DNA of 12,690 nucleotides, taken from NCBI GenBank assembly GCA_947371645.1, contig CANBQJ010000102.1, positions 1 through 12,690 of the forward strand, read 5' to 3'. Positions 7,171 to 11,197 of this stretch are shown in pieces; position 1 is the stretch's first letter, and the number at the start of each line of letters is the position of its first letter. Both the position numbers and the translations under genes were made by a program. The notes beneath the pieces are model-generated. The model made no database searches. It had not been told where the DNA came from and was given only the letters and a program-made list of their open reading frames with translations. Source of the stretch: Burkholderiales bacterium. GTDB lineage: Bacteria; Pseudomonadota; Gammaproteobacteria; Burkholderiales; Burkholderiaceae.

Positions 7171-7195
7171 GGCGCGCCAGACGCCTCAGCGCGCC
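7171..7195. other. Inverted repeat at the argH-gtrA convergent end
   Basis: GGCGCGC (7171-7177) pairs with GCGCGCC (7189-7195) across an 11-base loop, between the stop of argH and the last codons of the GtrA gene. There is no T-run on either strand, so a terminator role is only possible. Confidence 0.3.
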
Positions 7196-7659
7196 AGGAT
7201 GCGTCGCGCCGCCAGGAAGTTGAACGCCATGCCCACCAGGCTGCCCAGGGCCACACCCAGGCCCGGGTGGGCGTGCACCGCCGGCAGCGTGGCCACCGCC
7301 AGCGCATAGGTGCCGTAGTTCAGCGCGCCACCCAGGGCCATCGACGAGAAGTAGCTCAGGTATTCGCGCCACAGCGTCTGCCTGGGGGCCAGCACGCCTT
7401 CACGCTGGCGCTGGCGGTCGACCGAAAAGGTCACCGCTCGGTTGAACAGCCAGGTGAAGGTGGCCGCAGCCCAGAACGACAGCGCACGTCCACCGTAACG
7501 GCCCCACACCGGCTGGGCCCAGGCCAGCACGCCCAGGTCGACGCCCAGGGCCAGCACGCCGGACACGCCAAACCACAGCAGGGCCGCGTGCCGGCCGTAC
7601 AGGCGCGCCCACAGCGAATGCTGGCGGGCTGAGGACGACGTCGAAGGGGGGACGCTCAT
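7186..7659 (-). CDS. GtrA-family membrane protein
   Basis: This 157-residue protein of the GtrA family (PF04138-type) has four predicted membrane helices, near residues 27-49, 60-78, 100-121 and 132-152. Typical family features are GVSGVLALGVDLGVLAW in the first helix and FTWLFNRAVTFS after the second, plus a basic end (FNFLAARRILAR). Family members are small inner-membrane proteins often linked to flipping or transfer of lipid-linked sugars in surface glycan modification; the substrate here is unknown because no glycosyltransferase lies next to it. No Shine-Dalgarno sequence is visible. TAGAAT lies only 10 bases before the ATG (7669-7674 on the + strand as ATTCTA), which could mean a very short leader. 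The gene is convergent with argH and divergent from the hemerythrin gene. Confidence 0.85.
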   Translation of the reverse strand: MSVPPSTSSSARQHSLWARLYGRHAALLWFGVSGVLALGVDLGVLAWAQPVWGRYGGRALSFWAAATFTWLFNRAVTFSVDRQRQREGVLAPRQTLWREYLSYFSSMALGGALNYGTYALAVATLPAVHAHPGLGVALGSLVGMAFNFLAARRILAR

Positions 7660-7707
7660 GGGGCGCTGATTCTAGGCGCTGGCGCCGCAAGCCGGCCGAG
7701 CGCACAA

Positions 7708-7727
7708 GGCTTGCGCCAACGCAAGCC
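7708..7727. repeat. Perfect 8-bp inverted repeat upstream of the hemerythrin gene
   Basis: GGCTTGCG (7708-7715) and CGCAAGCC (7720-7727) flank CCAA. The repeat sits in the divergent region between the GtrA and hemerythrin genes and directly before a purine-rich AGGAGAGGAGG (7728-7738). It could be an operator or a leader hairpin next to a ribosome-binding site. Confidence 0.5.
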
Positions 7728-7760
7728 AGGAGAGGAGGCGGGGCCCTACCCTTCGCGGCC

Positions 7761-8270
7761 ATGAACGCCACCACGAGCACCGCCCCAGAGCACACGGCCC
7801 ACACCATGGGGGCGCCGGCCACGCCCGCTGCCGCACCTGCCGCCTGGCAAGGGCCTTGCACCCCAGGCCTGCCCTGGTCGGAGGCCCTGACCGTGGCCTT
7901 GCCCGCGATGGACGAGACCCACGAAGCGTTCGTGGCGTTGCTGGCCGCAGTCCAGACCGCGGGCGACGGCGACCTGGTGTCACGGTGGCATGAGTTGGTC
8001 GCGCACACCCGTGAACACTTTGCCCGAGAAGATGCCTGGATGGTCGCCACCGGCTTCGCCCCGGGCAGTTGCCACATGACCCAGCACCAGGTGGTTTTGC
8101 AGGTGCTGCAAGATGGCTTGCAGGCTGGCGAGGTCGGGCAACTGGCCCCCATCCGCCAGATGGCGCACGAGCTGACGCTGTGGTTCCCCCACCATGCCCA
8201 GAACATGGACGCCGGCCTGGCCCTCCACCTCAAGAGCGTGGGTTTCGACCCGGCCCAGGGCACGGCCTGA
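7761..8270 (+). CDS. Bacteriohemerythrin
   Basis: This 169-residue hemerythrin-like protein probably binds oxygen at a non-heme di-iron centre. All seven canonical ligands are present in order and spacing: His54 (DETH), His86 and Glu90 (HFARE), His105 and His109 (HMTQH), His145 and Asp150 (HAQNMD). The typical W-[ST] entry (LPWSEAL) precedes the first helix. The N-terminal 30 or so residues are Ala/Thr/Pro-rich and longer than in many single-domain bacteriohemerythrins, with no clear signal peptide. The only strong purine-rich Shine-Dalgarno-like sequence (7728-7738) lies 22 bases before this ATG, so the start, or the way translation begins, is uncertain. An in-frame ATG at residue 16 has no better site. 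Such proteins serve as oxygen store, delivery protein or sensor. Confidence 0.92.
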   Translation: MNATTSTAPEHTAHTMGAPATPAAAPAAWQGPCTPGLPWSEALTVALPAMDETHEAFVALLAAVQTAGDGDLVSRWHELVAHTREHFAREDAWMVATGFAPGSCHMTQHQVVLQVLQDGLQAGEVGQLAPIRQMAHELTLWFPHHAQNMDAGLALHLKSVGFDPAQGTA

Positions 8271-8442
8271 CATTTCCCTCACCCAGGGGAATGCGGGTTG
8301 CCTCAGTGTTGCGATACGCTCGCAGGCACGGGGCTCCGGACGCCGCTTGGCGACCCAGCCTGCCCGTGCAGCCGCCGATGTTGGGCGGCAGCAGCCTTCT
8401 GCGCTGCGCTCCGTGCCATCCACCGACAACTCAGGACTCCCC

Positions 8443-8679
8443 ATGCGTACCCTTTCGAACCTGGAAATCAGCAGCATCGCCGGCGGCACCTTCTGCCACC
8501 CCCATCCCGTGTGCACGCCCACCGTCAAGCTGGACGTCCTGGCTGCACTGCTGAGCTGCATCAAGCTCAGCGTGTCCATCGACGTGAGCGTCGGCACCTG
8601 CGCCCCCAAGCCCAAGCCCCCCGTGAAGACCTGTGGCGGCAGCACCAGCACCCCCGTGGACGAGCCCTACCTCGGCTGA
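8443..8679 (+). CDS. Microcin-like double-glycine peptide precursor 1, Cys-rich
   Basis: This small gene encodes 78 residues. The N-terminus MRTLSNLEISSIAGG closely resembles the export leader of class II microcins such as colicin V (MRTLTLNELDSVSGG), in which a C39-peptidase ABC transporter cuts after the Gly-Gly. Cutting here would release a 63-residue core with five cysteines (18, 24, 39, 53 and 64), a hydrophobic stretch (about 30-50, VKLDVLAALLSCIKLSVSIDVSV) and a Pro/Lys-rich segment (APKPKPPVK). AGGA (8433-8436) lies 6 bases before the ATG and a terminator follows at 8711, supporting a real gene. No obvious promoter is seen in the 172 bases after the hemerythrin gene. I do not recognise the core, and no exporter or immunity gene is nearby, so antimicrobial activity is conjecture. 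Confidence 0.75.
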   Translation: MRTLSNLEISSIAGGTFCHPHPVCTPTVKLDVLAALLSCIKLSVSIDVSVGTCAPKPKPPVKTCGGSTSTPVDEPYLG

Positions 8680-8710
8680 GCCCCCAGCCAGGCCATTGCG
8701 GCCCAGGCAG

Positions 8711-8735
8711 AGGCCCCGCATTGCGGGGCCTTTTT
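8711..8735 (+). terminator. Intrinsic terminator after peptide gene 1
   Basis: AGGCCCCGC (8711-8719) pairs perfectly with GCGGGGCCT (8723-8731) across a 3-base loop, and T residues continue to 8735. It separates the two peptide genes into distinct transcription units. Confidence 0.88.
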
Positions 8736-8827
8736 CATGTCCGCCTCAGGTCTGCTGGCGCACGGCCATCGCGCGCAGACGCGGGAAAACCTCCTGTGCC
8801 CGGCGCGCCATCCACCCTGTTCAAGGG

Positions 8828-8860
8828 GGGTGCTATGGGCATTTTTGGGGGAAAGCACCC
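8828..8860. repeat. Inverted repeat upstream of peptide gene 2
   Basis: GGGTGCT (8828-8834) and AGCACCC (8854-8860) form a perfect 7-base inverted repeat with 19 bases between the arms. The stretch between is T- and G-rich. It ends 36 bases before the sigma-28-like -35 element at 8896, a position suitable for an activator or repressor, but no family consensus is recognised. The surrounding 8736-8895 holds no supported gene. Confidence 0.4.
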
Positions 8861-8895
8861 AGGCACTGCAAGCGAGGGGGCAAGGGGTCTATCGC

Positions 8896-8922
8896 TAAAG
8901 TTGTGACCGACGACACGGATAA
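8896..8922 (+). promoter_or_regulatory. Sigma-28 (FliA)-type promoter for peptide gene 2
   Basis: TAAAGTTG (8896-8903), exactly 11 bases, then ACGGATAA (8915-8922). Against the FliA consensus TAAAGTTT-N11-GCCGATAA this is 7 of 8 and 6 of 8 matches with the consensus spacer. Transcription would start near 8929, about 40 bases before the ATG at 8970. No sigma-70 pair with proper spacing is seen here. Confidence 0.6.
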
Positions 8923-8969
8923 CGTGCCTCGTCACCCGAAACAACAGACACACCACCTGGAGCAGACAC

Positions 8970-9206
8970 ATGCGTACCCTGAACACCCAAGAACTGAGCG
9001 CCGTGACCGGTGCCGGCAAGGCCGCCCCCAGCCCCGCAGCCGTCATCGACGCCATCACCAAGGCCCTGGCTGCCAAGGGCATCACCGTGGCCCTGAGCGG
9101 CACCACGCTGACCATCACTTCGCCCCAAGGCACCAAGACCTTCACGCTGCCGGCCCAACTGGCCGCCAAGCTGGCCGCCCTGACTGGCGCCACCGCAGCC
9201 GCCTGA
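8970..9206 (+). CDS. Microcin-like double-glycine peptide precursor 2
   Basis: This gene also encodes 78 residues. The leader MRTLNTQELSAVTGA is homologous to that of peptide 1 (7 of 15 identical: MRTL, Glu8, Ser10, Gly14) and to colicin-V-type leaders. The cut site would be Gly-Ala rather than Gly-Gly, a variant some C39 peptidases accept. The 63-residue core has no cysteine: an Ala-rich, probably amphipathic helix (about 20-36), a likely beta-hairpin (ITVALSGTTLTITSPQGTKTFTL) and a second Ala/Leu-rich helix to the end. GGAG (8959-8962) lies 7 bases before the ATG. The upstream sigma-28-like promoter and the terminator at 9256 define a single-gene unit. The core is unlike that of peptide 1 and unrecognised; export by a double-glycine transporter is inferred from the leader alone. 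Confidence 0.75.
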   Translation: MRTLNTQELSAVTGAGKAAPSPAAVIDAITKALAAKGITVALSGTTLTITSPQGTKTFTLPAQLAAKLAALTGATAAA

Positions 9207-9255
9207 TCAGGCACACGCATCCAGCCGACGGCCCTCACCGGGGAGGTCGGATGCC

Positions 9256-9292
9256 AAAAGCCGGCACCTGCCACAAGCAGGGCCGGCTTTTT
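9256..9292. terminator. Bidirectional terminator between peptide gene 2 and dxs
   Basis: AAAAGCCGGC (9256-9265) pairs with GCCGGCTTTT (9282-9291), and an inner CCTGC/GCAGG stem (9267-9271 with 9277-9281) extends the hairpin. T-runs occur on both strands (9288-9292 on +, the A-run 9256-9259 for -), so it can end both the peptide transcript and the xseB-ispA-dxs operon. Confidence 0.88.
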
Positions 9293-9301
9293 GTTTGGGC
9301 T

Positions 9302-11197
9302 TCAGTTGGGGCTGGCTGCCAGGCGGGTGCGGATGGCCTGCTCGATGCCGGCGGCATCCAGGCCGCACAGGGCCAGCAGCTTGGCCGGGTCGCCGTGCTC
9401 GACGAACTCGTCAGGCAGGCCCAGCATCAGCAGGGGTTTGGCCAGGCCGGCCGCAGCCAGGGCCTCGGCCACGGCAGAACCCGCACCACCTTGCACGCAG
9501 CCCTCTTCGACCGTCACGATGAGGTCGTGGTCTGCGGCCAGTTGCTTGACCAGCGCCACGTCCAGCGGCTTGATGAAGCGCATGTTGGCCACGGTGGCGT
9601 CCAGGCTTTCAGCAGCCTGCAGCGCCGGGTAGAGCAAGGTGCCAAAGGCCAGGATGGCCACGCGGCCGCCTTGGCCTGCCGGCTTGGCCGTCGTGCGGCG
9701 CACTTCACCTTGCCCCCAGGGCAAGGTGTCGAGGTGGGTGGGCACGGCCACACCCGCACCGGTGCCACGCGGGTAGCGCACGGCCACGGGGTGGTTCTGG
9801 GCGTAAGCCGTGCTCAGGGCCTGGCGGGTCTCGGCTTCATCGGCCGGGGCGATCAGGCTCAGGTTGGGCACGCAGCGGCAAAAGGCGATGTCGAACGCAC
9901 CCATGTGCGTGGCGCCGTCCGCACCCACGATGCCGGCACGGTCCAGCGCGAAGACCACAGGCAGGTTCTGGATGGCCACGTCGTGGATGAGCTGGTCGTA
10001 GGCGCGCTGCAGGAAGGTGGAGTAGATCGCCACCACCGGCTTCATGCCTTCGCAGGCCAGGCCGGCGGCAAAGGTCACGGCGTGCTGTTCGGCGATGCCC
10101 ACGTCGAAATACCGGCCCGGGTATCGCTTGTGGAACTCGACCATGCCCGAGCCCTCGCGCATGGCCGGCGTGATGCCCACCAGGCGCGGGTCGGCAGCGG
10201 CCATGTCGCACAGCCACTGGCCAAAGATCTGCGTGAAGGAAGGCTTGCCACCCGGCTTGGGCGGCGGAAAGCCCAGTGCAGGGTCGAACTGGCCAGAGGC
10301 CGCGTGGTACTTCACGGGGTCGGCCTCGGCCAGCTTGTAGCCATAGCCCTTTTTGGTCACCACGTGCAGGAACTGCGGGCCGCCCAGGTCGCGCAGGTTC
10401 TCCAGCGTTGGGATGAGGCTGTCGAGGTCATGGCCGTCGATGGGGCCGACGTAGTTGAAGCCGAATTCTTCAAAGATGGTGGCGGGCACCACCATGCCCT
10501 TGGCATGCTCTTCCAGCTTCTTGGCCAGCTCGAACAGCGGCGGCGCGTTGCGCAGCACCTGCTTGGCGCTTTCACGCGCGGCCGTGTAGAAGCGGCCGGA
10601 CATCAGCCGCGCCAGGTAGCGGTTGAGCGCCCCCACCGGTGGCGAGATCGACATGTCGTTGTCGTTGAGCACCACCAGCAGGTCGGGCATCTTGCCGGCG
10701 TGGGGCACGCCCGCATTGTTCAGGGCTTCAAAGGCCATGCCGGCGGTCATGGCGCCATCACCAATGATGGCCACGGCCTTGCGGGCCTCGCCACGCAGCT
10801 GTGCACCCAGGGCCATGCCCAGCGCCGCAGAGATCGATGTGGACGAGTGCGCGGTGCCGAAGGTGTCGTACTCGCTCTCGTCGCGGCGCGGGAAGCCGCT
10901 CATGCCACCGTACTGGCGCAGCGTGGGCATGCGGTCGCGTCGGCCGGTGAGGATCTTGTGCGGGTAGGTCTGGTGGCCCACGTCCCACACCAGGCGGTCG
11001 TGCGGGGTGTTGAAGACGTGGTGCAGGGCGATGGTGAGCTCCACCGTGCCCAGGTTGGACGACAGGTGGCCGCCCGTGCGGGACACGCTTTGCAGCAGGT
11101 GGTCACGCAACTCGCCGGCCAGCTGCTTGAGCTCGGTGCGAGACAGGTGCCGCATGTCCGCAGGCTTGTCGATCCTGGACAGCAGGGGGTGGCTCAT
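9302..11197 (-). CDS. dxs: 1-deoxy-D-xylulose-5-phosphate synthase
   Basis: Dxs (631 residues; 620 in E. coli) condenses pyruvate and glyceraldehyde 3-phosphate into deoxyxylulose 5-phosphate, the entry step of the MEP isoprenoid pathway and a precursor for thiamine and pyridoxal. The thiamine-diphosphate site is clear: [18 protein letters not shown] from residue 146 and LNDN with Asn178. Catalytic His44 ([12 protein letters not shown]) and Glu370 ([16 protein letters not shown]) are present, as is the transketolase C-terminal domain (about 500-625). The start at 11197 is preferred over an ATG 9 bases upstream (11206): AAGGA is 8 bases before the former but abuts the latter. It is the last gene of the xseB-ispA-dxs operon, 51 bases after ispA. 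Confidence 0.97.

Follow-up and report, generated by a model that had tools for sequence, protein, structure and literature searches.

Two adjacent genes for double-glycine-type peptides at a hemerythrin-dxs junction and their putative C39 exporter in Aquabacterium

The window analyzed here, i.e. the whole 12,690-nucleotide stretch of contig CANBQJ010000102.1 from a Burkholderiales bacterium (GCA_947371645.1), carries ordinary chromosomal genes around the locus of interest, including flagellar and chemotaxis genes, argH, a GtrA-like gene, a hemerythrin-like gene, dxs, and ispA. These names derive mostly from reading the translations, and that of the hemerythrin-like gene from a Pfam match (PF01814). 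Between the hemerythrin-like gene and dxs lie two small genes on the forward strand, pep1 (8443..8679) and pep2 (8970..9206), separated by 290 bp that include a strong hairpin. Each encodes a 78-aa precursor. In pep1, a 15-residue leader (MRTLSNLEISSIAGG, 8443..8487) precedes a core that has five cysteines and whose tail is rich in Pro and Lys and includes CGG; in pep2, a related 15-residue leader (MRTLNTQELSAVTGA, 8970..9014) precedes a small alpha/beta core. An alignment of 24 leaders places the predicted C39 cleavage site after residue 15 in both precursors, following GG in pep1 and GA in pep2, and the remaining 63 residues of the two proteins are unlike. Frames and leaders are thus as described in the initial annotation, but the equal length of the precursors, which it had pointed out, is a coincidence, since both known pep1 homologs (P0001 and P0002) are 77 aa long, compared to 78 aa for pep1.

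In the list of open reading frames (ORFs), pep1 is contained in a longer frame starting at 8194; its start is the ATG at 8443, which has its own AGGA motif and is supported by the leader. The pep2 ATG is preceded by GGAG, and these motifs, identified by eye, agree with the good ribosome-binding sites claimed for both genes. With regard to the claim that each gene has its own terminator, a strong hairpin follows each ORF: a hairpin with a T run 3' of pep1 (8709..8736, forward strand; fold of 8705-8742, −22.5 kcal/mol, z −4.9), which is a likely intrinsic terminator, and, in the pep2-dxs interval, a second one that also carries a T run (9256..9295; fold of 9245-9305, −32.8 kcal/mol, z −4.0) and is a possible two-way terminator. 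However, a consensus terminator scan of the window reported none, and the second hairpin, located at the 3' end of dxs, may serve both pep2 and dxs. As a proposed explanation for the negative scan, the long stems would absorb the T run. An Rfam search of positions 7600-9500 gave no match.

High-GC DNA yields many spurious ORFs, and the window contains 110 of at least 40 aa, so that pep1 and pep2 might be chance ORFs carrying look-alike N-termini. This reading is very improbable and in effect refuted by the leader scores and ranks and by full-length homologs in separate clusters. In a leader matrix built from 18 unique transporter-linked leaders of relatives, with the window leaders left out, pep2 (35.9 bits) and pep1 (16.7 bits) ranked first and second among the 308 ATG starts of the window. 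The third-ranked start, located inside dxs, reached 11.8 bits, and the best of 2,426 control ATG starts 10.6 bits. Both leaders therefore match, above the control maximum, those of transporter-linked Aquabacterium peptides, for which the alignment of 24 leaders gives the consensus MRTLNxQEIxxVSGG. The transporter-linked leaders score 18.6–47.5 bits, all of them being themselves part of the matrix. The pep1 leader is far below most of these (27.9–47.5 bits) and only that of locus L119 (18.6 bits) is similar; with respect to the leader, pep1 is thus the weaker of the two and is close to L119, to which its core is also related.

The homologs come from metagenome protein clusters and are full-length, with two clusters for pep1 (P0001 and P0002, 94% and 83% identity) and five for pep2 (73%–96% identity). 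An alignment of six pep2 sequences has 53 invariant columns listed of 78, and this conservation suggests that the gene is in use. The pep1-like P0001 and the pep2-like P0003 were both recorded on 10 contigs, with a longest contig of 10,372 in both, and because of these matching values the tandem is probably maintained in the metagenome relatives. Among these metagenome relatives, the frames are thus kept, and the lack of conservation that had been named as grounds for rejecting the genes was not observed there.

For comparison, we used 42 Aquabacterium genomes, the nearest of which (G001) has 25% of the sampled 31-mers of the window in common. Of the 41 genomes with a dxs match, 30 dxs loci were compared using tblastn ends. 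A hemerythrin match is missing in five of these loci, and in the 25 relatives with both genes the distance between them is 72–251 bp, compared to 1,038 bp between the homologous gene ends in the window (8271..9301). The window thus holds extra DNA at this junction. None of the 30 dxs loci gave a tblastn match (E ≤ 1e-3) to pep1 or pep2. Because the junction is short in all 25 comparable relatives and no peptide match was found in the 30 loci, the pair is specific to the lineage of the window at the hemerythrin-dxs junction, where it would have been gained (or kept) in this lineage only. The alignment of relatives at this locus, suggested in the initial annotation as a check, therefore went against conservation of the pair at this position. 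No flanking repeats of note mark an insertion, and the GC content across the pair region (62%–70%) is like that of the surroundings. Variability of gene content is also found nearby, where the gene for the GtrA-like membrane protein (7186-7659), flanked by argH and the hemerythrin-like gene, is present in only 6 of the 30 relatives' loci.

It is true of the window that no exporter is visible, as had been stated, but C39-peptidase ABC transporters are present in the genus. C39 matches at E ≤ 1e-15 were obtained in 31 of the 42 Aquabacterium genomes, and 25 have a match above 110 bits in frames of ~708–838 aa, leaving 17 genomes without one; this cut-off, like the E 0.01 cut for leader peptides used below, was set after seeing the match lists. 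The C39 motif QxExxECGxAC was identified in all of the 25 transporter loci except L127, i.e. in 24. A downstream histidine follows in 24 loci and the DPAxG aspartate in 23, L128 also being without the aspartate. In L107 and L125, Pfam matches to OEP, HlyD, and C39-ABC_membrane-ABC_tran lie side by side, and an OEP efflux protein was confirmed by Pfam in L119. The proposed search for a C39 transporter with an HlyD partner thus gave a positive result at the genus level. In addition, G009, where no leader peptides were detected, contains a 731-aa frame (G009:C53:2185-2523) with a weak C39 match of 62.7 bits.

Small leader ORFs are found near the transporter in 22 of the 25 transporter loci, the remaining ones being L113, L120, and L128, and the leader regular expression had no match in the 94,473 bases of dxs loci used as a control, the strict version on the 30 dxs loci likewise giving zero, as expected. 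With a leader-peptide profile of 23 sequences, two of them from the window, 27 of the 42 genomes were leader-positive at E ≤ 0.01. These comprise all 25 genomes with a C39 match above 110 bits, but 2 of the 17 without one (Fisher 1.4e-9). As 16 of the 25 transporter genomes had supplied rows to the profile, the nine that had given none were also considered separately, and all nine are leader-positive (Fisher 1.8e-5). Counting G009 as a transporter genome changes the proportions to 25 of 26 and 2 of 16. Further MRTL...G[GA] leaders, for which a search had been proposed, thus occur throughout much of the genus, and the description of the pair as precursors of the double-glycine type, in which the leader is conserved and the cores have diverged, is borne out by a genus that has a C39/HlyD exporter, usually beside peptides with the same leader.

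The leader peptides are not restricted to the transporter loci. When 18 further places were opened, a leader ORF was present in 17 (all except L215), and in G004, G064, and G065 no leader ORF is present at the fetched transporter locus while one is found elsewhere, so that peptides supplied in trans would have a precedent. Pairs of tandem genes whose cores differ, as judged by eye, are found in L208, L209, and L214. The L208 pair adjoins a long frame that reads like an efflux partner, along with a C39-like frame that is partly masked, and for the L214 pair no transporter is apparent within about 10 kb on a coarse map. One peptide family is found in Aquabacterium commune, A. fontiphilum, and A. 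lacunae, and in four records without a genus name, and the assignment of the window to Aquabacterium is based on this distribution. Several other arrangements were observed across the genus. In L213 (G025:C44), a 59-aa leader peptide is encoded twice in identical form, with 344 bp between the copies. Members of the 61-aa and 59-aa families, both of them conserved, also lie off the fetched transporter loci in L198, L199, L203, L210, and L211, G017 and G005 having a second copy. In several genomes, the clusters adjoin glpD-, glpK-, and DeoR-type-like genes (L106, L107, L119, L121, L216, and L217; names by eye), with differing cores in the same place.

From the genus, we infer that the genome of the window also encodes a C39 transporter. 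The genes might instead be relics, intact and translated in a lineage that has lost its transporter, so that nothing is exported. This would be in line with the 17 genomes without a C39 match above 110 bits, two of which are still leader-positive, both of them incomplete (53% and 86%). Yet the other 15 of these 17 genomes also lack a leader peptide, so that the peptides seem tied to the transporter, and the conservation of pep2 in six sequences again speaks for use. We consider the relic explanation improbable. Instead, pep1 and pep2 likely encode precursors of small secreted proteins that are exported in trans and cleaved after residue 15, a reading based on sequence. The 15-residue leader, MRTL...E...(I/V).G(G/A), would be recognized by a C39-peptidase ABC transporter whose gene lies at another place in the genome. 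Together with an HlyD protein and an outer-membrane efflux partner, this transporter would act as a type I secretion system, cut after residue 15, and export the 63-residue cores. The pair would thus be a satellite, without linkage to the transporter, of a system found across the genus whose single leader serves several unrelated cargoes. The pep2 product may be a small folded alpha/beta protein, and that of pep1 may be rich in cysteines and contain a hydrophobic helix.

The cores differ in how far they can be related to other proteins. The pep1 core (8488-8676) contains five cysteines, an odd number, all kept in P0001 and P0002, and pep1-type cores have CHPHPVC or CRPHPVC directly after the leader; disulfide pairing, dimer formation, and metal binding are all possible. 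A search of 61 genomes with pep1 gave one distant, full-length match within the genus, in G025 (G025:C64:10582; 34% identity over residues 1-72, E 0.007 per genome), which is weak alone but lies about 3 kb before a C39 transporter. A profile from the G025, G022, and G026 peptides found 18 proteins, including both known pep1 homologs and Aquabacterium soli EIP75_20590, many of which are near the seed rows and therefore do not provide independent proof of pep1 kinship. Features common to pep1 and the G022, G025, and G026 groups are a GGT following the cleavage site, cysteines, a hydrophobic central part, and a tail with CGG-T (GGT..C..C..CGG-T). In hhalign comparisons of the cores only, the best of seven groups for pep1 was the G022/G026 group (E 0.095, probability < 2%). 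The earlier statement that the cores match nothing does not hold for pep1, which has diverged relatives beside C39 transporters. No Pfam family matched pep1 at E ≤ 1, and pep1 had no match in plasmids. A genus profile of the pep1 group gave matches in 33 of the 42 genomes at E ≤ 0.5, but these were rejected, as the only strong one (G025) is an alignment row and many others hold stops.

For pep2, no clear core relative is found among the transporter-linked core groups of Aquabacterium, the best of seven in the hhalign comparison of cores being the G006/G063 group (E 0.01, probability < 2%), and no credible relative was detected in the 42 Aquabacterium genomes. A profile search of the genus did give matches in 27 of the 42 genomes at E ≤ 0.1 (best 0.0029), almost all of them partial and most covering residues 13-52, but we regard these as chance matches; one that was opened (L007) lies opposite a long tRNA-synthetase-like frame. 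The pep2 profile had no match in genome contigs or viral contigs. An AF2 model of pep2 (mean pLDDT 80.5, pTM 0.53) predicts that the leader is followed by a helix, three strands, and a second helix, and no convincing structural match to this model was found. Comparisons of pep1 and pep2 with NCBIfam remained below cut-off, and the curated cut-off of the TubC_N docking domain (PF18563) was not reached.

In class II microcin-type bacteriocins, the cores would kill or inhibit related bacteria, with self-protection encoded elsewhere or not needed. We rate this explanation for pep1 and pep2 as possible but rather unlikely. The precursor layout, the GG/GA leader, and the C39, HlyD, and outer-membrane partners fit the class II microcin set as described in the excerpts of PMC9746304, and the distribution at the hemerythrin-dxs locus is patchy. 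In Pfam, pep2 matches Bacteriocin_IIc (PF10439; E 0.016, 15.7 bits) and MccV (PF17508; E 0.16, 13 bits), both weakly and under their respective cut-offs of 27.1 and 27. On the other hand, no immunity-like small ORF was recognized by reading between or beside pep1 and pep2, in agreement with the initial annotation that no immunity gene is visible in the window, and coarse ORF maps of L106, L107, L111, and L119 have no extra ORF between the peptide and efflux genes. Immunity proteins share no recognizable sequence, so that this absence beside the pair is not proof. The 157-aa GtrA-like membrane protein fits the size rule for immunity proteins given in the excerpts of PMC9746304, but was rejected as an immunity gene, as it occupies the same place in 6 of the 30 relatives' loci, which lack the peptides. 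GxxxG-type core motifs are a feature of two-peptide (class IIb) bacteriocins, and reading of the translations revealed none in the pep1 and pep2 cores. That class is also defined by neighboring precursor genes that are co-transcribed; pep1 and pep2 are neighbors on the same strand, with the 290-bp gap and its hairpin between the two ORFs.

Selection on the genus families also bears on this question. In the 61-aa family (nine sequences), pooled pN/pS is 0.18 in the core and 0.58 in the leader, and in the 59-aa family (seven sequences) 0.12 and 0.54, respectively. The cores of these two families are under purifying selection. A third genus family with two sequences has a core pN/pS of 0.54. Conservation of two core families across species at low pN/pS is unlike a fast arms race, and because of these low values and the lack of an immunity-like gene, we lean toward a stable secreted role. 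A non-killing collective role, such as in surface life, matrix, or signaling, is suggested here tentatively and as somewhat less than an even prospect, and an antibacterial role appears rather doubtful.

The regulation of pep2 may involve a candidate sigma-28 (FliA)-like site on the forward strand (8896..8922, TAAAGTTG-N11-ACGGATAA) that ends 47 bp before the pep2 ATG. It is the only site in the window with ≤ 3 mismatches and a spacer of 11, compared to 0.00 in shuffles, and such sites are rare in the genus, with two in the 350,622 bases that the transporter loci cover and none in 94,473 bases of dxs loci. Its −10 part differs from the GCCGATAA-type sites upstream of some flagellin genes of the genus, although the genus consensus is poorly calibrated, since only 6 of 30 flagellin loci have a site with ≤ 4 mismatches in the scanned stretch. 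Control of the whole system by sigma-28 was rejected, as none of 22 linked peptides has a site with ≤ 3 mismatches in the 300 bp upstream (best, 5 mismatches). A second sigma-28-like site with a spacer of 12 (TCAAGTTC-N12-GCCGATAC, 442-469) is located upstream of a motA-like gene. As a speculative extension, which we consider improbable, the pair could form a two-part secreted module with a FliA-switched pep2 and a shared C39 exporter, drawing on an immunity-free, cargo-swapping genus repertoire for collective behavior (surface life, matrix, or signaling) and not for killing.

To our knowledge, little is known about what double-glycine peptides do in bacteria other than Enterobacterales, lactic acid bacteria, and cyanobacteria. 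Aquabacterium would add a case with one leader, one kind of exporter, several unrelated cargoes, no dedicated immunity gene seen, and unlinked copies, and as the genus is culturable, the idea of secreted peptides that are not bacteriocins is directly testable there. Among open-licence papers, we found none joining Aquabacterium with double-glycine peptides; Aquabacterium and microcin are co-mentioned, once each, in a single paper.

A close comparison is with the transporter-linked peptides of Aquabacterium itself (61-aa, 59-aa, 74-aa, TF, and other core groups), which have the leader consensus in common with the window pair but, unlike the pair, mostly adjoin a transporter. Class II microcins such as microcin V are likewise made as short precursors whose leader terminates in GG or GA, and their C39 transporter works with an HlyD protein and an outer-membrane partner, a set also found here in the genus (PMC9746304, in excerpt). 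They differ from the window pair, for which no immunity gene was seen, which remains under the MccV and Bacteriocin_IIc cut-offs, and which, within the window, lies away from any transporter. The Nap peptides of Neisseria gonorrhoeae are betaproteobacterial GG-motif peptides with unlike cores that are encoded together in an island with a C39 peptidase, and they are described as mediating autolysis and not killing competitor species in the excerpts of PMC11798529. The Nap island has its own C39 peptidase, export channel, and immunity-like gene (PMC11798529, in excerpt), whereas the window pair is without such neighbors. Finally, EbfG1-4 of Synechococcus elongatus are small secreted GG-motif proteins required for biofilm formation that depend on the C39-peptidase transporter PteB (PMC4997328, in excerpt). 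They resemble the Aquabacterium system in comprising several small GG-leader proteins with C39 export, and have a role other than killing according to the same excerpts, although they come from a different phylum and the likeness concerns the layout. Compared to these systems, pep1 and pep2 are best viewed as two putative unlinked members of a leader-sharing, C39-exported Aquabacterium peptide repertoire, a view that is well supported at the genus level and would involve an export route of a known kind.
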